In this document: in pieces, positions 1 through 47,481 of the stretch
How positions within the stretch are numbered: position 1 is the first letter of the stretch
Layout: every line of letters begins with the position of its first letter
Assembly (NCBI GenBank): GCA_017521405.1
Contig: JAFXCP010000012.1
Location: 1-64,000, forward strand
Length of the DNA: 64,000 bases
From: Akkermansia sp.
Lineage (GTDB): Bacteria; Verrucomicrobiota; Verrucomicrobiia; Verrucomicrobiales; Akkermansiaceae
Direction of reading: 5' to 3'
Notes under the pieces: model-generated
What the model was told of the DNA's origin: nothing
The model's input: only the letters and a program-made list of their open reading frames with translations
Database searches by the model: none
Translations under genes and position numbers: made by a program

Positions 1-870
1 CGGCGGCGCGATTTATGGGGGCGAGGACAGCACCATCACGCTGAGCAACAACGGCGAGGTGGAGTTCAGTGGGAATACGGCGGTCGGCAACCGCCAAGCC
101 TTCGGCGGCGCGATTTATGGGGGCGAGGACAGCACCATCACGCTGAGCAACAACGGCGAGGTGGAGTTCAGTGGGAATACGGCGGTCGACTCCTCCTACA
201 GATACGGCGGCGCGATTTATGGAGGCAGCTACAGCACCATCACGTTGAGCGACAACGGCGAGGTGAGCTTCAGCGGGAACTCGGCTGGCTTCTACGGCGG
301 CGCGATTTATGGGGGCGACTATAGCACCATCACGCTGAGTAACAACGACACGGTGAGCTTCAGCGAGAACGAGGCTTTCTCCGGCGGCTCCGGCGGCGCG
401 ATTTATGGAGGCTCCTCCAGCACCATTACGCTGAGCAACAACGGCGAGGTGGAGTTCAGTGGGAATACGGCGGTCGACTCCTCCTACAGATACGGCGGCA
501 CGATTTATGGAGGCTCCTCCAGCACCATCACGCTGAGCAACAACGGCACAGTGACCTTCAGCGGGAACACGGCTTCCTACGGCTCCGGCGGCGCGATTTA
601 TGGGGGGAGCTACAGCACCATCACGCTGAGCAACAACGGCACAGTGACCTTCAGCGGGAACACGGCTGGCTCCAACGGCAGAGGCGGCGCGATTTATGGG
701 GACACCATCACGCTGAGCGACAACGACACGGTCACTTTCAGCGGGAACAGGGCTTACTCCTACGGCGGCGCGATTTATGGATACACGACGCTGAGCAACA
801 ACGGCACGGTGACCTTCACCGGGAACACGGCTTCTTTCTACGGCGGCGCGATTCATTCTAACGGCACTCT
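1..870 (+). repeat. Tandem coding repeats, some copies near-identical at DNA level
   Basis: Positions 1-86 are repeated exactly at 103-188, an offset of 34 codons. About 80 bases near 132-210 recur near 422-500 with one or two changes (for example gcg becomes acg in the GGAI motif). Such close DNA identity favours slippage or recombination that changes copy number. Confidence 0.85.
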
Positions 871-38757: not shown

Positions 38758-39321
38758 TTAGCGCGCACCGGCAGCCTGCAACATGCGAGCCACCTCCATA
38801 TGCCCTTCCTCCCGGGCTTTCATGAGCGCAGTTTCCCCATCATCATCGCGGGCATTTACCTCGGCTCCGGCGGCAAGCAGAAGCTTCACCACCTCCACAT
38901 CGCCATTATCGGCAGCCTCCATGAGCGCCGTGTTCCCATCATCGTCCTGCTGGTTCACATTTGCCCCGGCGGCAAGCAGGAGTTTTACCGTTTCCACGCT
39001 ACGGCTATCAGCCGCCTGAATCAAAGCCGTCTCACCATCCTCATCCTGCTGGTTCACATTTGCCCCGGCCGCAAGAAGCAAGCGCACAATCTCGGCACGA
39101 CCTTTTTCCGCAGCCTCCATCAGCGCAGTAGAACCATCATTATCCTGCATATTGACCGATGCTCCGGCGGCAAGTAAACGTTTTACTGTGGCTACATCCC
39201 CCCACTCGGCAGCATGCATCAAAGGCGTCTCGCCCTCTCTATTGGCTGCATTTACATCGGGCTGCTGCGCGGCGGCAACACCGCACCCGGCTATTACTAT
39301 GGCTACCAGTATTTTTTTCAT
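38758..39321 (-). CDS. Exported ankyrin-repeat protein, possible lipoprotein
   Basis: 187 residues from the third of three adjacent ATGs (39327, 39324, 39321); aaggag lies 9 nt upstream of this one and 6 from the middle one. The N-terminus ends VAIVIAGCG, which fits a lipobox (I-A-G-C), so it may be lipidated. Five ankyrin repeats follow (NxxDxDGxTALMEAAxxG...VKLLLAAGANVN), nearly identical to each other. A protein-binding role at the cell envelope is likely; partner unknown. Confidence 0.85.
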   Translation of the reverse strand: MKKILVAIVIAGCGVAAAQQPDVNAANREGETPLMHAAEWGDVATVKRLLAAGASVNMQDNDGSTALMEAAEKGRAEIVRLLLAAGANVNQQDEDGETALIQAADSRSVETVKLLLAAGANVNQQDDDGNTALMEAADNGDVEVVKLLLAAGAEVNARDDDGETALMKAREEGHMEVARMLQAAGAR

Positions 39322-39502
39322 CATCATCGTCTCCTTTTCTATGGGTTGAATTATCTTCGGATGGCGACTCCCCGCCCTTCCTTAGCTCCAGAGTAACAAG
39401 GACTCCCTACCAAGGCAACAAAAAAAATCCAACAAGACACACTTTTTTCCTACAATTTATATATGATAATTCTATAAAAAGCCATAATTCGGAGCTACAG
39501 GC

Positions 39503-39531
39503 TTGCGAATGAGAAAGAAATATGCTAGCCT
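39503..39531 (+). promoter_or_regulatory. Promoter of the second ECF sigma factor
   Basis: TTGCGA (39503-39508), 17-bp spacer, TAGCCT (39526-39531), 10 nt to the ATG at 39542. The rest of the 39328-39541 gap is AT-rich with nothing else recognisable. Confidence 0.6.
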
Positions 39532-39541
39532 GTATGTACAC

Positions 39542-40207
39542 ATGCACACCCCCTCCACCAATCCCCCGCCCACGGACGGCGAGCTGGAACAGCTTGCCGC
39601 GCGTACGCGGCGCAGTCTCATCATGCGCCTGGGGGACTGGAGGGACCAGCGGAGCTGGGATGAGTTTTACCGCACCTACTGGCGTTTGATATACTCCGTA
39701 GCTATACAAGCCGGACTGCGGGAGGACGAAGCCTGGGACGTGGTGCAGGAAACCATTCTGACCATAGCCAAGCAAAGCCTTAAGGGTAGTTACGACCCGG
39801 AACGCGGCTCCTTCAAGATGTGGCTGTGGAATGTAACCCGCTGGCGCATTAACGACCAATTCCGGCACCGCAACAAAAACAAAACAACCGAGGACAGCCA
39901 TGCCGTCTTGGAAAACATAGCGGACGCCGGGGGCACCGATTTTGATGCCTTATGGGAACGAGAGTGGCAAGAGAATCTGATGAAAGCCGCTTTAGAACGC
40001 GTCAAAATGAAAGTGGCTCCCAAGCAATTCCAGATTTTTGATTACAACGTGCTACGCGGGATGAGTGCCAACGAAGTGCGCCAAAAGCTGGGAGTAAGCA
40101 TCGCCCAAGTCTACCTTGCAAAACACCGTGTAGGGGGGGCACTTAAAAAAGAAATTGGCTATTTACGAGCGCAAGAAAACAGCGAGCCATCCCAGCCTGC
40201 GGAATAA
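39542..40207 (+). CDS. ECF-type RNA polymerase sigma factor
   Basis: 221 residues. Region 2 is DEAWDVVQETILTIAKQ with the WLWNVTRWRINDQFRHR DNA-melting helix, and region 4 is GMSANEVRQKLGVSIAQVYLAKHRV. The N-terminal ~25 residues are extra. No anti-sigma factor is next to it; the next genes are a DUF-type protein, a tail-anchored protein and an RND efflux operon, which could be targets. The start at 39542 follows from the -10 box. Confidence 0.87.
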   Translation: MHTPSTNPPPTDGELEQLAARTRRSLIMRLGDWRDQRSWDEFYRTYWRLIYSVAIQAGLREDEAWDVVQETILTIAKQSLKGSYDPERGSFKMWLWNVTRWRINDQFRHRNKNKTTEDSHAVLENIADAGGTDFDALWEREWQENLMKAALERVKMKVAPKQFQIFDYNVLRGMSANEVRQKLGVSIAQVYLAKHRVGGALKKEIGYLRAQENSEPSQPAE

Positions 40208-40271: not shown

Positions 40272-40278
40272 TTCGCGC

Positions 40279-40854
40279 ATGGAATGGAACGACCACTTCA
40301 TGAGTCTCTTCCGGGAAGCAGCAGAGCGCTATATCTCCAGCCCTCAGTCCGCCCCGGAACGCTTCTACCTACCGGAAGAACAGGTCTTTCTGAAAAGCAT
40401 TGGTTACCAACCTGCAGAAATGCACGGCTATGTGCGTGAATACGTCACCAAAGGAGCCCCAACCCCCAGCACGGCACTGCTCATAGCCTCCGTACGCCGC
40501 TCCTTCTTCCTTACGGCACAGCGTGGAATGTCCGGCAATGCTAAACCGCTCCGCGCCGGAGATTTACCAGCAGAAAACGAGGAATTTCAGGAAATTGCCT
40601 ATCTTCCGCGCATTATCCGCAAAGCGGAAGCCAAGCTCTTCGGCATATTGGATTCGGATTTGATGTATGGCGATGAGAAGGACTTGGAGTTTTTGAAAAC
40701 CCATGGCAACATTCACCCGGCAGATTTCCTGCAAATGGCAGCATCCGCCCGCAGCGACCGGCAAAAACTCGTAGCCGCCGTGCTGAATGCCATGCGAAAC
40801 AATGGCGAGGTTCTCCCCGGTGCCACCCCCGAGGACCAAAAGACCCTTCTGTAA
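40279..40854 (+). CDS. DUF5069-like protein, unknown function
   Basis: 191 residues, soluble. It begins MEWNDHFMSLFREAAERY. The stretch LPRIIRKAEAKLFGILDSDLMYG followed by FLKTHGNIHPADFL resembles, from memory, the DUF5069 family seen in Verrucomicrobia, whose function is not known. No catalytic motif is evident. It has its own leaderless promoter directly after the ECF sigma gene and stands 17 nt before the next gene. Confidence 0.75.
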   Translation: MEWNDHFMSLFREAAERYISSPQSAPERFYLPEEQVFLKSIGYQPAEMHGYVREYVTKGAPTPSTALLIASVRRSFFLTAQRGMSGNAKPLRAGDLPAENEEFQEIAYLPRIIRKAEAKLFGILDSDLMYGDEKDLEFLKTHGNIHPADFLQMAASARSDRQKLVAAVLNAMRNNGEVLPGATPEDQKTLL

Positions 40855-40871: not shown

Positions 40872-41294
40872 ATGTCCAGTTCTCCCCAAAGTCCCGCCCC
40901 GGAAGCCGGTACAGAGGCTCAAAGAAAAGCTCTGGATGAAATGTCGGCACAATTGGTAACAAAGTTACACCAAATGATTCGGGAGCAGGAGCAGCGTGTG
41001 CAAGCCTTCGCCGCAGAATACAACACAACCTTGCCCGGGGTCTCCCCAACACCGATTACCCCGGAGGAAACGAATCCGGCATACAAGCGCCCGCAACCTC
41101 CGCCTTTGGTTACTCGTATCCCGGAGGAAAACCAATCGACATCCGTGCAGTGGGAAGAATACCCCCAATCGACAGAACACACCCCGGAAGCAACAGAGGA
41201 AGAAGGAAAAGAGCAACCGCAAGAATCCATCGGCGCTATTCCCATCCTCTTCATCATCGTAGCCATCTTCATCCTCCTGCGTTCTTGCAGTTAA
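40872..41294 (+). CDS. Small tail-anchored protein, unknown
   Basis: 140 residues. Residues ~14-52 form a charged helix with coiled-coil character (ALDEMSAQLVTKLHQMIREQ). A Pro/Glu-rich linker follows, then one C-terminal hydrophobic span (IPILFIIVAIFILL) ending RSCS. With no signal peptide, the bulk should face the cytoplasm. No family recognised. It sits 23 nt before the fused adaptor gene, so it may be part of the efflux operon. Confidence 0.75.
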   Translation: MSSSPQSPAPEAGTEAQRKALDEMSAQLVTKLHQMIREQEQRVQAFAAEYNTTLPGVSPTPITPEETNPAYKRPQPPPLVTRIPEENQSTSVQWEEYPQSTEHTPEATEEEGKEQPQESIGAIPILFIIVAIFILLRSCS

Positions 41295-41317: not shown

Positions 41318-44257
41318 ATGAGCAAAACTACACTAATTGCCCTAGCACTAGGCATCGGCACCATGGGGCTCACCATGGTAGCCTGCACCGACAGCAGCGC
41401 CGATACCGCCACCACTCAGGCAGCCACCCCCTCCATCAAAGTATTCCCGCTTATCCGGCAGGAAGTTACGGACTACGGAGAGTGGTTCGGCTACCTGCGC
41501 GGACAACAGGATACGGACATCCGGCCCCGTATTTCCGGCTTCCTCATTTCCCAAGAATACAAAGATGGCACCCACGTCAAAGCCGGTGATATTCTCTTCC
41601 GAATCGACCCGGAGCTTTATGCCGCAGAACTGGAACGAGCTAAAGCAAACCTTCAGGCAGCAGAAGCCGCACTCATTGCTGCGGAAGCCTCCGCTAAAAA
41701 AGCGGATATGGACGTGGCGAGATACAGCCAACTCGTCAAAACAAGTGCCGTGTCCGAAAAAGACCTCACCGATGCCCAGCAAACCCAGAAAATGGCCAAG
41801 GCTCAGGTGGATGTCTGCAAAGCCAATGTGGAGCAAAACAAAGCCGCCGTTAACAACGCACAAATCAACTTAGACTACACCATCATTCGCGCACCTTATG
41901 ATGGCATCGTAGGTGCGGCAAAGGCTTCCCAAGGAGAATTAGTAAGCCCGGCCACCGTGCTGACCAACATAGCCTTGGTAGACCCCATCCGCGTGGATTT
42001 TTCCATTAGCGGGAACTACCTTGTCAGCAGCAACATCGGCAAACAAACCGGCGAGCATTCTTCCTTTGAACTGGTTATGGAAGACGGCAGCCAATACGAA
42101 CATCCCGGGCGCATCGTCTCCATGGAAAGCCAACTCACGGACTCCGGACTGCTGAATATTGAAGGCGCCATTCCCAACCCTTCCCGCCTGCTCCGCGCCG
42201 GCATGCCCGTGCGCGTACGAGTGCCGTTAAAAACCAAGCCTGCCTTTCTGGTACACAAGGATGCCATCCGCACCGTACTGCTTAACAGCTTTATCGTTGT
42301 GGTGGATAAGAAAAACATCCCCCACATGGTGCCGGTGAATGTGGGAGGGGAATACACCGTAACAGTAACGGAGGCCGATGGCTTTAACTCCGAGCAAACA
42401 TTGGTATCCGTGCAGGATTACGATATTCCCCTTGCAGAGCGCCTCAAAGCATTCGGCATAGAATCCCCGGAAGAGGCACTCATCGTAACGGACCGTGAAA
42501 ACAGTATGTTTGCGGTTACAACCTCCTCCGCCAATAGCCGTTTACCCCAGGATGCCACCCCCGGCACTATCAAAACGGAGGCTTTTTCCTTCCGCCCGGC
42601 GCCTCTGCCCGCAGTAGCCGCTGCCCAAGCAAAACAACAGCAAGCCGGCTCCGTGCAAGCATCCACGGCAAAAGCCACCCTGCCCCCCTTCCCGGTTAAA
42701 GTTCGTAACATGCTCCAGCAGGATGTCTCCGTGCAGGAAACTTGGTACGGACACCTGCGCGGGGTGGAAGAAACAGACATTCGCCCCCGAGTGAGCGGAT
42801 TCCTCATTAGCCAAAACTTTAAGGATGGAGCATTGGTAAAGAAGGGGGATATACTCTTCCAAATTGACCCTGCCCCTTACAAAGCAGATTTAGATAAGGC
42901 ACTTGCCAACCTTGCTGCGGCAGAAGCCTCAAAGGAACAAGCCGCCGCACAGCTGGAAATGAGCCGAATTAACTACGAGCGATACCGAAAGCTCAGCACT
43001 GCCACACCGGGAGCCATTTCCGACAAAACCGTAACAGACGCCGCCACCGCCGTCGAAACAAGTGAAGCGGATTTGAGAAAAGCTAAAGCCGCTGTGGCAC
43101 AAAGCGAAGCTGCCGTTAAGCAAGCTAAAATCAACCTGAGCTACACCACCATCACCGCACCCTTCGATGGCAGAATCGGTATTCGCAAGCCCTCCATCGG
43201 TGCTCTGGTGAGCCCGGAAGATGCCCAACCACTGGTTACGCTCTCCTCCGTCCACCCCATGCGTGTGGATTTTGATATGAGTGGTAAAGCCACTCTGGCC
43301 GGTATTGCCACCTACCGCCAAAAAGTAGCCGCAGGCAAACAGGACCAAAAGGGGGAATTTGAAATCATCCTCGAAAACGGAGCCGTTTACCCGCACCTTG
43401 GTCGCGTTATCACCGCAGACAACTCCATCAACACCACTACCGGCACGCTCAAAGTCATCGGGCAGGTGGACAATGCGGACGCAGAGCTTCGCAGCGGCAT
43501 GCCCGTGCGGGTTCGTGCCGATTTGACGCCCATCCGGCATGCATGCCTTGTCCCGGCACGCGCACCGCTCAATGCCAAAGGGATGGATTTGGTTATCCTG
43601 CTGAAACCGGATAACACACCGGCCATGCTCCCTATTACCAAGGGGCCACTTGTCACCATCCCCGTTGCAAACCCGGACGGCAAGGAAATCGTGCAACCCA
43701 TGCAGGTTATCGATGCAGATCGAGCCTCTGTGGGCGCCCTCATGCTGGCCAAGGCAAAGGCACCCAGTCTGGAAGCTCTTGTGCTGGGGGGCGCAAAAGT
43801 GAAAGATTGGGGAGAATTCCTCCTCCGGCAAGCCGGTGTATCCAGCTATAAAGAACTGCTGGAGAAGCAACAAGGCACATCCCTTACAGAAGAAGATTTG
43901 GCGAACTCCGGGGCTGCAAACTGGGGCGAGCTGCTGCTGCGCTACAATGCTGCCCGCACCTTCCGCGCCATGGCTCTCAAAATGGCCGAGGCTCAGGATG
44001 AGCTAGACCTCATCGCCCGAGGGCAAGGTTGCAACAGCGTGATGGAAATGGTACTGAAAGGCATGGGCTTCGAGAATCCTGCCAACACCCCTGTGGTGGT
44101 GGAAGGCTCCTTGATGGCAGCCCAGAGCTTCGCAGCAAACTCTGCCGCCGGAGCCGATGTCAACAAACTGACTCCCACTCCCTTTATCTACACACCCACC
44201 AAGACGGTGGAACCCTCCGTTACCGCGCAGCCGGAATCCACGAATAATGCCAAGTAA
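41318..44257 (+). CDS. Tandem-fused RND periplasmic adaptor (two AcrA-type units in one chain)
   Basis: 979 residues, about 2.5 times a normal adaptor. A lipobox-like MVAC gives lipidation at Cys23. Unit 1 (~38-430) and unit 2 (~457-800) each contain barrel, lipoyl and alpha-hairpin parts: TDIRPRISGFLISQ and TDIRPRVSGFLISQ, then AGDILFRIDP and KGDILFQIDP, then YTIIRAPYDG and YTTITAPFDG. The RLS outer-factor-binding pattern is canonical in unit 1 (RYSQLVKTSAVS); unit 2 has two extra residues (RYRKL...AIS). A ~170-residue helical tail follows. The pump gene is 29 nt downstream. No outer-membrane TolC gene is present in the window. Confidence 0.92.
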   Translation: MSKTTLIALALGIGTMGLTMVACTDSSADTATTQAATPSIKVFPLIRQEVTDYGEWFGYLRGQQDTDIRPRISGFLISQEYKDGTHVKAGDILFRIDPELYAAELERAKANLQAAEAALIAAEASAKKADMDVARYSQLVKTSAVSEKDLTDAQQTQKMAKAQVDVCKANVEQNKAAVNNAQINLDYTIIRAPYDGIVGAAKASQGELVSPATVLTNIALVDPIRVDFSISGNYLVSSNIGKQTGEHSSFELVMEDGSQYEHPGRIVSMESQLTDSGLLNIEGAIPNPSRLLRAGMPVRVRVPLKTKPAFLVHKDAIRTVLLNSFIVVVDKKNIPHMVPVNVGGEYTVTVTEADGFNSEQTLVSVQDYDIPLAERLKAFGIESPEEALIVTDRENSMFAVTTSSANSRLPQDATPGTIKTEAFSFRPAPLPAVAAAQAKQQQAGSVQASTAKATLPPFPVKVRNMLQQDVSVQETWYGHLRGVEETDIRPRVSGFLISQNFKDGALVKKGDILFQIDPAPYKADLDKALANLAAAEASKEQAAAQLEMSRINYERYRKLSTATPGAISDKTVTDAATAVETSEADLRKAKAAVAQSEAAVKQAKINLSYTTITAPFDGRIGIRKPSIGALVSPEDAQPLVTLSSVHPMRVDFDMSGKATLAGIATYRQKVAAGKQDQKGEFEIILENGAVYPHLGRVITADNSINTTTGTLKVIGQVDNADAELRSGMPVRVRADLTPIRHACLVPARAPLNAKGMDLVILLKPDNTPAMLPITKGPLVTIPVANPDGKEIVQPMQVIDADRASVGALMLAKAKAPSLEALVLGGAKVKDWGEFLLRQAGVSSYKELLEKQQGTSLTEEDLANSGAANWGELLLRYNAARTFRAMALKMAEAQDELDLIARGQGCNSVMEMVLKGMGFENPANTPVVVEGSLMAAQSFAANSAAGADVNKLTPTPFIYTPTKTVEPSVTAQPESTNNAK

Positions 44258-44286
44258 GCTATTCACAATCAACAAATACACCGCAT

Positions 44287-47200
44287 ATGTCCCCGTTTTT
44301 CATTAAACACCCCATCATTGCCGGCGTTATCTCCATCGTGACCACGCTGCTGGGCATCATCTGCATGATGGCTCTGCCCATCTCGCAGTACCCGGATATT
44401 ACCCCGGTCACCATCCAGATGAGTGCCACATACCCCGGTGCTAATGCTCAGGAAGTGGCGGATGCCGTCGCCACACCCATTGAGCTGCAGCTCTCCGGCA
44501 TTGAAAAGATGGATTACATGAACTCCACCTCCAGTAACAATGGCTCATGCAGTATCAACGTTGTTTTCGAGGCGGGTTCCAACGCGAATACCAACCAACA
44601 GAATACCTACATGCGATACAGCCAGGCAACCAGCCAGCTTCCCACCACCGTATCGCAAATGGGCATCACCATCAAGCAGTCCTCCGGTCTGCCGCTCATG
44701 CTGTATGCACTCGATTCCCCGGAAGGTTTCTTCAAACCCACGGCTCTTACAGGCTATGCCTACCTGAACCTAGTGGACCCGGTTAAGCGAGTCAAAGGCG
44801 TGGGCGATGTGATGGTCTTCGGCGGGCGATTCTCCGTCCGCATCTGGCTGGACACGGAAAAAATGGCTCAAAAAGGCATTTCCGTAAGCGAGGTGTATAA
44901 TGCCGTGAGCACCCAAAATGCCATTAATCCCGGTGGTGCAGTGGGTGCAGAACCCATGCCGGATGGGCAGGAATTCACCTACACTATCCGCAACAAAGGC
45001 CGCGTGGAATCCGTGGAGGAATTCGGGGACATCATCGTACGCCAGCAGGGCACTCAGGCCGTGCGTCTGCGGGATATTGCCCAATTTGAACTTGGCTCCC
45101 AGAGTTACTCTCTGGCGGGTCGCGTCAATGGGCGCCCCGGCACCGTTTTGGCCGTATATCAGGCGGCTAATTCCAATGCTATCGAAACCGTGAATAACCT
45201 CAAAAAACTCTTTGCAGAAAAAGAAAAAGTAATGCCGGAAGGCATGCGCGGTTTTGTGGCACTGGATACCACTACCACCGTGCGAGATTCCATCACGGAG
45301 ATTATTCACACACTGGTAGAGGCACTTGTGCTGGTGGCCATTGTGGTATTCGTATTCCTGCAAGGGTGGCGTGCCACACTCATTCCGCTGATTGCCGTAC
45401 CGGTATCCCTCATAACGACTTTCTGCTTCTTCCCGGTACTGGGCTTCACACTCAACACGATTTGCCTTCTGGGCATGGTACTGGCCATTGGTCTCGTAGT
45501 GGACGATGCTATCGTGGTGGTGGAAGCCGTGGAATCGCACATGGAAAAAGGCATGACGCCGCGCCAAGCTACCTTTGCCGCCATGAAGGAGGTAAGCGGT
45601 CCAGTGGTGGCCATTGCCCTCGTACTCGCGGCCGTGTTCCTTCCCTCCGTGCTTCTTCCGGGCATCACCGGCACCCTCTTCCAGCAGTTTGCTGTTACGA
45701 TTGCTATTTCCATGCTCATCTCCGCATTCAACGCACTTACCCTTTCTCCGGCCTTATCGGCGTTGATGCTCAAACCTAAAGCAGAGCACAAATCTCTACT
45801 AACTCCTCTTTACAACCTCTTCAACAAAAGCTACGATGCCGTAGCGGAGGTATTTGCCAAAATGTGCGGATTCCTCTGCCGCCACCTCGTCATAGCCATG
45901 GGTGGACTGGCACTGCTGTGTGCCGCTATTATTCCGGTAGCAAAGCAGGTCCCCGGCGGATTCCTCCCCTCGGAGGACCAAGGCTTCCTGCTGGGCGGTG
46001 TCATTATGAAACCGGGTGTTTCCCTGCAACGCCTCACCGAGCAGGTGAAAACCGTGGAAAACGTCATCCTCTCCGACCCTACTACGGAATTTGGTGTTTC
46101 CATCATCGGTATGAACATCATCATCGGCGTGCAAACCACGAACGCCATTTCCTTCTTCTGCTGCCTCAAGCCTTATGCAGACCGCCCGGTGATGGAAAAT
46201 GGAGAAATTCCGACAGCTGATGATGTGCAGAAACGCATTTCTGCCAAACTGGCCATGAGCGGCGTGGATGGTGTCTCCTTCCTTGTAAGCCCGCCGGCCA
46301 TTCCCGGTGTAGGTACAGGCAATGATATTTCCTTTGTGCTGGAAGACCTCGAAGGCCAGGGCGTAGCAGCTCTCTACGAGCAGGTGGTACGCCTGGAACG
46401 CGAGCTGATGAAGCACCCGGCCATAGCAAAGGCTTCCGACATGATGCTGCCGCAGGTGCCGCAAAAAAGCATCGCCATTGATAAGGACAAGTGCTTGGCC
46501 CAGGGCGTGGATTACTCAGCGGCTAATGCCCTGCTGCAATGCTTCAACGGCTCCAGCTTTGTGAACTATTACACGCAATTCGGTCAGCAGTGGCAAGTAT
46601 ACTTGCAGGCTCAGGGCCGCAGCCGTGCCAACACAGACCAAATTGCCAACTTCTATGTAACCAACTCCAAGGGTGAATCCGTGCCGATGAGCACACTCAC
46701 CACCATTAAGGACATTGCAGATACGGAATTCGTATACCATGTGAACAACTACAACTCCGGCCGAATCTCCGTTACTCCCGCAGAGGGCTATTCCACCGCT
46801 CAGGCAATGGCCGCAGTGGAAGAAGTTTTCGCCCAAACTATGGATACCACCAAGTTCGCCATGGAATACATCGACATGAGCTTCCAGGAGAAGAAGGTTC
46901 AGGATGGCTTGGGACTGGGCGCCATCTTCACCCTCTCCGGCATATTTGCCTTCCTCATCATGGCCGCTCTGTATGAGAAATGGACCCTGCCCTTGGCCAT
47001 TTTCCTTTCCGTACCGGTAGCTGTGCTGGGAGCCTTCCTCGGGCTGTGGATGTTTGGCATGGATCTTAACCTCTATGCACAGATTGGTCTGGTAATGCTG
47101 GTAGGGCTGGCAGCTAAGAATGCCATTCTCATTGTAGAATTCGCCGTGCTGCAAATGGAGCGCGGTAAGAGTCTGATGGAGGCGGCCGTTATTGCAGCAC

Positions 47201-47481
47201 GTATGCGCCTGCGCCCGATTCTGATGACCTCCTTCGCATTCATTCTGGGCTGCGTACCATTAGTCACTGCGGAGGGGTCCGGTGCGCTGGCGCGCAACTC
47301 CATCGGCGTGGTGGTAGTCATCGGCATGAGCATTGCCACAGCAGTGGGCGTCTTCTTCATCCCGCCTGCATTTGTATTTATCATGAAACTCTTCCGCTCC
47401 AAGGTTGAAAAAGCCCACCACGGAGAAGACCCGGACGAAGTGCTGGCCTACGAACGTTTGGCCGCCGAGGAAAATGAATAA
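44287..47481 (+). CDS. RND multidrug efflux transporter (HAE1/AcrB family)
   Basis: 1064 residues, 12 spans in the AcrB order with two large periplasmic loops. The proton-relay aspartates are in GLVVDDAIVV (Asp406, Asp407) and the paired Lys in GLAAKNAILIV (Lys944). ISQYPDITP near residue 33 is the HAE1 signature. It exports hydrophobic or amphipathic compounds using the proton gradient as a trimer with the adaptor encoded upstream. Substrates are unknown; bile salts would suit a gut habitat (inference). Confidence 0.95.
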   Translation: MSPFFIKHPIIAGVISIVTTLLGIICMMALPISQYPDITPVTIQMSATYPGANAQEVADAVATPIELQLSGIEKMDYMNSTSSNNGSCSINVVFEAGSNANTNQQNTYMRYSQATSQLPTTVSQMGITIKQSSGLPLMLYALDSPEGFFKPTALTGYAYLNLVDPVKRVKGVGDVMVFGGRFSVRIWLDTEKMAQKGISVSEVYNAVSTQNAINPGGAVGAEPMPDGQEFTYTIRNKGRVESVEEFGDIIVRQQGTQAVRLRDIAQFELGSQSYSLAGRVNGRPGTVLAVYQAANSNAIETVNNLKKLFAEKEKVMPEGMRGFVALDTTTTVRDSITEIIHTLVEALVLVAIVVFVFLQGWRATLIPLIAVPVSLITTFCFFPVLGFTLNTICLLGMVLAIGLVVDDAIVVVEAVESHMEKGMTPRQATFAAMKEVSGPVVAIALVLAAVFLPSVLLPGITGTLFQQFAVTIAISMLISAFNALTLSPALSALMLKPKAEHKSLLTPLYNLFNKSYDAVAEVFAKMCGFLCRHLVIAMGGLALLCAAIIPVAKQVPGGFLPSEDQGFLLGGVIMKPGVSLQRLTEQVKTVENVILSDPTTEFGVSIIGMNIIIGVQTTNAISFFCCLKPYADRPVMENGEIPTADDVQKRISAKLAMSGVDGVSFLVSPPAIPGVGTGNDISFVLEDLEGQGVAALYEQVVRLERELMKHPAIAKASDMMLPQVPQKSIAIDKDKCLAQGVDYSAANALLQCFNGSSFVNYYTQFGQQWQVYLQAQGRSRANTDQIANFYVTNSKGESVPMSTLTTIKDIADTEFVYHVNNYNSGRISVTPAEGYSTAQAMAAVEEVFAQTMDTTKFAMEYIDMSFQEKKVQDGLGLGAIFTLSGIFAFLIMAALYEKWTLPLAIFLSVPVAVLGAFLGLWMFGMDLNLYAQIGLVMLVGLAAKNAILIVEFAVLQMERGKSLMEAAVIAARMRLRPILMTSFAFILGCVPLVTAEGSGALARNSIGVVVVIGMSIATAVGVFFIPPAFVFIMKLFRSKVEKAHHGEDPDEVLAYERLAAEENE

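Follow-up and report, generated by a model that had tools for sequence, protein, structure and literature searches.

A natural chain of two unlike adaptors beside an AcrB-type RND pump in Akkermansia

The number of adaptors around a resistance-nodulation-division (RND) drug-efflux pump and the division of roles among them have so far been judged from crosslinks, engineered fusions and the TriABC system. A stretch of 64,000 nucleotides from Akkermansia sp. (assembly GCA_017521405.1, contig JAFXCP010000012.1, positions 1 to 64,000; hereafter the window), part of a genome of 1.99 Mb, raises the question in a natural form, as it carries one reading frame that encodes two adaptor units in tandem, followed by an AcrB-type pump gene. 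Does this 979-residue chain work as a covalent adaptor dimer, and do its unlike halves have separate jobs? The answer rests on the following features.

41318-44257, plus strand: fused adaptor reading frame, ATG start, 979 residues, free of internal stops
41318..41386, plus strand: signal peptide ending in candidate lipidated Cys23 (hydrophobic start followed by Cys, judged by eye, no predictor)
41423..42592, plus strand: adaptor unit 1, residues 36-425, complete including the membrane-proximal domain (TIGR01730; strands and helices 40-422 in an AlphaFold2 model)
41612..41875, plus strand: alpha-hairpin of unit 1, residues 99-186 (modelled helices 99-141 and 147-186)
41720..41755, plus strand: canonical docking tip of unit 1, R135/L139/S146 (+4, +11)
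42593..42682, plus strand: inter-unit linker, residues 426-455, rich in Ala, Gln and Pro, no signal peptide (low predicted local confidence, pLDDT, at 442-447; alignment of homologues)
42683..43717, plus strand: adaptor unit 2, residues 456-800
42872..43141, plus strand: alpha-hairpin of unit 2, residues 519-608 (modelled helices 519-562 and 569-608)
42980..43021, plus strand: altered docking tip of unit 2, R555/L559/S568 (+4, +13; two extra residues)
43718..44089, plus strand: insertion of 13-residue helical repeats, residues 801-924, in the membrane-proximal domain of unit 2 (periodicity and models)
44090..44257, plus strand: end of unit 2 with its final strand and the stop, residues 925-979 (partly common to single adaptors of the genus)
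44287-47481, plus strand: AcrB-type (HAE1) RND pump, 1064 residues

The NCBIfam model TIGR01730 (RND_mfp) matched the 979-residue chain with 358 bits (cut-off 94.9) in two stretches, and units 1 and 2 share 40% identity across 345 positions (E 1e-67). Each half fits this family and the AcrA/MexA-type fold, and the beta-barrel, lipoyl, hairpin and membrane-proximal domains that define an adaptor are found in the chain. Structural alignment on unit 1 placed a MacA chain over residues 36..419 and an AcrA chain over 36..426. The initial annotation, made from the letters alone, had described two complete adaptor units in tandem in one frame, recurring TDIRPR-[IV]-SGFLISQ and GDILF-[RQ]-IDP landmarks, and an AcrB-type pump next to them. 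All of this held: the frame contains no stop, comparison of the units recovered both landmarks (TDIRPRISGFLISQ in unit 1 and TDIRPRVSGFLISQ in unit 2; GDILFRIDP and GDILFQIDP, respectively), and the pump matched PF00873 with 909 bits and TIGR00915 with 947.1 bits (cut-off 940.35 bits). A C-terminal helical tail of about 170 residues, also proposed there, did not survive, as most of it is an insertion inside unit 2, located between two strands of the membrane-proximal domain and followed by one strand and a brief C-terminal stretch, both of which occur in single adaptors too. The insertion has a periodicity of 13 (z 11.4 against column shuffles) and forms short helices in the structure models. 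Among the 49 homologues, the span matching window residues 796-925 measures 126-131 residues in 39, 95-107 in five and 22-29 in another five. Searches returned neither a convincing Pfam family nor a solved fold for it, and the repeats were not seen in those single adaptors from the genus that we compared. If the model holds, this helical array would be a new structural element.

Only one lipoprotein-like signal is present per chain, at its start. In all 30 aligned homologues, a Cys at residues 18-31 stands behind a hydrophobic N-terminus (judged by eye), which points to a putative lipid anchor. By eye, no signal peptide is visible for unit 2; a linker of ~30 residues occupies that position, and its length and sequence differ between species.

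To see how widely the fusion occurs, we compared it with the genomes of the genus. Matches at E <= 1e-90 were found in 54 of 77 genomes, its own included, and none of those listed contains an internal stop, which upholds the conservation of the two-adaptor single chain across most of the genus. The match in genome G093 is partial, covering residues 11-682 within a frame of 700 residues; that in G069 passes the threshold with its second half alone, in a 1,071-residue frame. The 23 genomes without a match include single-contig, near-complete ones of 2.7-3.5 Mb; the gene is therefore really absent there. At least one of the 23, G095, shows a partial match in another search and may instead reflect an assembly gap. 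A set of 55 named loci comprises 49 fused adaptors, four single adaptors (L105-L108) and two weak matches (L109 and L110). Nearly all the fused loci are labelled Akkermansia or Akkermansiaceae (exceptions L077 and L088), on which ground the genus is taken to be Akkermansia, and their samples come from goat, sheep, cattle, water buffalo, deer, rabbit, horse and others. The fused frame runs uninterrupted from Met to stop in 48 of the 49 loci, and L094 is cut by a contig end.

In the window, 29 bases separate the pump from the fused gene, and in 47/49 named loci a pump-like frame starts 10-58 bases past the fused stop (the contig breaks off within one of these frames); the remaining two loci end too early to show a pump. 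The closest solved relative of the window's pump is 8zxs. The Asp pair, Lys and Arg of the proton relay are present in GLVVDDAIV, AAKNAIL and LRPILMT, the Asp pair by alignment to 8zxs and the others by eye; their roles follow PMC8277102.

The two halves differ at the tips of their hairpins. Adaptors dock through an Arg-Leu-Ser (RLS) motif, RxxxLxxxxxxS (PMC3391258), which is not universal among them (PMC4446572). By aligned position, unit 1 shows the strict spacing in 41/49 homologues and all three letters in 48/49. The corresponding tip of unit 2 has the strict spacing in just 1/49, whereas its third position lies at +13 in 46/49, Arg is present in 49/49 and all three letters in 35/49. Scanning the hairpins for the motif in any register gave 41/49 for unit 1 and 1/49 for unit 2, the latter close to chance (47 of 2450 shuffled unit-2 hairpins carry it). 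The spacing proposed from the window alone, kept in unit 1 and lengthened by two residues in unit 2, was thus confirmed and extends to the homologues: the docking-tip asymmetry between the units is real and conserved. Among single adaptors of the genus the RLS pattern occurs in 15/15 and 5/5 cases, and a more distant single adaptor on C20a lacks it.

The same genome encodes a second fusion.

G000:C20:47015-49159, minus strand: 715-residue tandem adaptor beside another RND pump (loci L039 and L111; across the genus L039 and L111-L140)

Like the 979-residue chain, it consists of two units and adjoins an RND pump; it differs in belonging to a separate lineage, in its canonical tips, and in having neither an insertion nor, by eye, a lipobox Cys. 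Its units are 35.5% identical to each other, and it shares 25-29% identity with the 979-residue chain of its own genome. Searched at E <= 1e-60, 37 genomes of the genus gave 32 matches over more than one half and five over the first half only; these five genomes have frames of 379-537 residues and a single adaptor adjoining the corresponding pump. Outside the genus, our surveys were confined to Verrucomicrobiota. A profile search at E <= 1e-50 found no 979-type fusion in 288 genomes (265 outside the genus), with at most two candidates scored per genome, and a search at E <= 1e-75 found no 715-type fusion in 387 genomes (363 outside the genus), with up to three candidates scored; more distant doubles could be missed. 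Five odd long frames from outside the genus (L163-L167) contain one adaptor domain each and were rejected as fusions.

To trace the origin of the fusions, we used a careful tree of 84 units, with 18/30 fused and 14/30 tandem loci included and ownC20a omitted because of its long branch. Each of the four half-groups forms one side of a branch. The 979 and 715 fusions lie in separate parts of the tree, split by 100/100 branches, and each part has its own single adaptors; the two fusions therefore arose independently. Deep forks were unsettled in a quick tree. In the careful tree, F2 falls outside (S, F1) with weak support of 75/85 (F1 and F2 being the halves of the 979-residue chain), whereas Ta and Tb, the halves of the 715-residue chain, are joined at 96/70. 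Holding F1 and F2, or Ta and Tb, together was not rejected (p-AU of the approximately unbiased test 0.853 and 0.851, both better than the quick tree). Duplication inside the gene likely gave rise to the halves of the 715-residue chain and may have done so for the 979-residue chain. The pumps paired with the 979 fusion group in a single clade (18 rows; SH-aLRT 100), around which pumps with single adaptors branch off, and in lineages without the fusions single canonical adaptors adjoin related pumps. One adaptor per gene is therefore probably the older, ancestral condition.

The data directly establish that the two units are encoded as one chain and that this is conserved, together with the paired pump, the tip asymmetry, the second fusion and the single-adaptor relatives beside related pumps. 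In our reading, to which we give a probability of about 0.68, the 979 gene encodes a lipid-anchored covalent adaptor hetero-dimer that would act as three chains per pump trimer, with its halves specialised to unlike grooves of the channel. The periplasmic chain would be anchored by lipid and would combine two AcrA-type adaptors that are unlike each other. In place of six separate adaptors, three of these chains are expected to encircle the trimer of the adjoining AcrB-type pump and to form a six-hairpin funnel docking onto an outer-membrane channel whose gene lies elsewhere in the genome. In a fold model of the chain, the two hairpins jointly match outer-membrane-factor protomers on superposition. 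A single chain would fix both the 1:1 ratio and the alternating order of units 1 and 2, and with ratio and order fixed each half could specialise. The standard RLS tip of unit 1 and the lengthened tip of unit 2 probably face two unlike grooves of the three-fold channel, although we consider this assignment the weakest step. At the other end, the 13-residue helix array in unit 2 would add a layer near the pump and probably contacts the pump, a neighbouring chain or something else in the periplasm.

A bolder version of this model is also conceivable, though we consider it less likely than not. It sees the chain as an obligate hetero-dimer with each half bound to one groove type and the funnel as a trimer of chains with two hairpins each, matching the build of the channel it meets. 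The helix array would then be a new short-repeat fold, grown from one C-terminal helix of single adaptors and adding a pump-side contact, and the 715 fusion with its symmetric tips would serve as a natural control.

Several observations weigh against the hetero-dimer with specialised halves. The 979-residue model has a predicted template-modelling score (pTM) of only 0.64, which makes the relative placing of units 1 and 2 uncertain, and high Z scores come easily with helical bundles. No outer-membrane channel gene was found on the window's contig. The strict RLS pattern is missing from unit 1 in 8/49 homologues, and in unit 2 the L or S position is altered in 14/49, so that this tip may be decaying. 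Together with the lack of the RLS pattern from unit 2 in 48/49, such alterations would fit an arrangement in which unit 1 alone docks the channel and the hairpin of unit 2 is a spacer, leaving effectively three docking adaptors. We think this unlikely, given that unit 2 preserves its hairpin length, the invariant Arg and, in 46/49, the +13 spacing, a pattern that looks like constraint and not like decay. The +13 spacing and the invariant Arg also speak against a tip asymmetry unrelated to the grooves, caused by drift after duplication or by selection on pump contacts, which we nevertheless regard as a minority possibility. The large insertion in the membrane-proximal domain of unit 2 makes specialisation towards the pump plausible, and the 715 chain is a fused adaptor without such asymmetry: in an any-register RxxxLxxxxxxS scan both of its tips carry the RLS pattern in 28/28 each (two of the 30 loci, L138 in G031 and L140 in G030, were excluded for one in-frame TAG each). 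Its canonical tips show that fusion alone does not bring unlike tips, speak against fusion going along with separate jobs, and caution against overreading the asymmetry of the 979-residue chain. An altered tip in the first half of the 715 chain, which would mirror that asymmetry, had been considered and was ruled out by the same scan.

The covalent link itself may also be lost, through cleavage in the flexible linker after export. The chain would then be a precursor of two free adaptors made in an exact 1:1 ratio and working like TriA and TriB. The linker is indeed rich in Ala, Gln and Pro, poorly predicted at 442-447 and variable between species, but a cut would deprive unit 2 of its membrane anchor, no conserved cleavage motif was seen by eye in the linker alignment, and the covalent link has been retained in two separate lineages. 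Processing of this kind is in our view improbable. An assembly or sequencing artefact has practically no chance of explaining the fusion, since its presence in 54/77 genomes of the genus and at 49 named loci from many animal samples rules out misassembly.

Fused adaptors have precedents. DSY0927 of Desulfitobacterium hafniense is a natural fused dimeric adaptor (PMC4338810, PMC4446572) and, like the 979-residue chain, joins two different adaptor units. Its partner is an ABC-type transporter in a Gram-positive bacterium, and its first half is described as having no coiled coil (PMC4338810), whereas the 979-residue chain has hairpins in both halves, an RND partner and a Gram-negative host, and is conserved in most genomes of its genus. 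In Pseudomonas aeruginosa, TriABC-OpmH uses two unlike adaptors for one RND pump (PMC4338810, PMC13328181). One RND pump is present in each system, and TriA and TriB are 36% identical (PMC4338810), compared with 40% for units 1 and 2. In nature, TriA and TriB each have a gene of their own (PMC8277102), whereas units 1 and 2 share a single frame. Among solved structures, the 695-residue chain 6vej_P matches an adaptor in two stretches, residues 44-322 and 381-546. Judging by chain length and molecule name, we take 6vej to be TriABC and 6vej_P to be an engineered TriA-TriB fusion. A tandem AcrA has been engineered as a covalent adaptor dimer (Xu et al. 2011a, cited in PMC4446572). It is a laboratory construct, whereas the 979-residue chain is natural and its halves are unlike. 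The halves of the tandem AcrA are reportedly identical. Single adaptors of the AcrA/MexA type (TIGR01730) have one unit per chain and the 979-residue chain has two. In the literature covered, outside which most subscription papers fall, we recognised no description of a natural double adaptor for an RND pump in Akkermansia, and the 979-residue chain would add an RND version to the known fused adaptors.

Between them, a natural dimer with unlike tips, the like-tipped 715 fusion and the relatives with single adaptors open the trimer-of-dimers model to direct tests. With one chain type in a fixed order, the 979 system allows one tip to be changed at a time, and the fact that adaptors were joined twice in the genus provides a natural test of their number and arrangement around the pump.

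Two short genes precede the fused adaptor.

40276..40854 (from 40243 if a TTG start is included), plus strand: conserved upstream neighbour, 192 residues (internal ATG) or 203 residues (TTG); upstream tblastn match in 43/49 named loci
40872..41294, plus strand: 140-residue protein immediately before the fused gene, its C-terminal part holding one hydrophobic segment as judged by eye; upstream tblastn match in 35/49 named loci

Neither has a Pfam or NCBIfam match; both are possibly pump accessories. Further upstream of the cluster, 39503-40207 encodes a sigma-70 region 2 protein (Pfam, 30 bits) with a tblastn match in 2/49 named loci only, and 38758-39327 on the minus strand encodes a secreted-looking protein of 189 residues made up of repeats that by eye resemble ankyrin repeats.

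The genome encodes three outer-membrane factors, one beside the C26 pump, one beside an ABC set that looks MacAB-type by eye, and one near the end of C1. A search of the three for the VG[L/A] tip motif gave nothing clear. In A. muciniphila, a bile-induced RND set has been reported (PMC7671984). At L038 (3581-6506), a 371-residue single adaptor that lacks the RLS pattern precedes a frame of 566 residues with a lipoprotein-like start, and no pump lies between them. Locus L181 (G000:C7:69500-78000) contains in a row what by eye resemble a MacA-type adaptor, an ABC ATPase and a permease, together with an outer-membrane factor recognised by Pfam.

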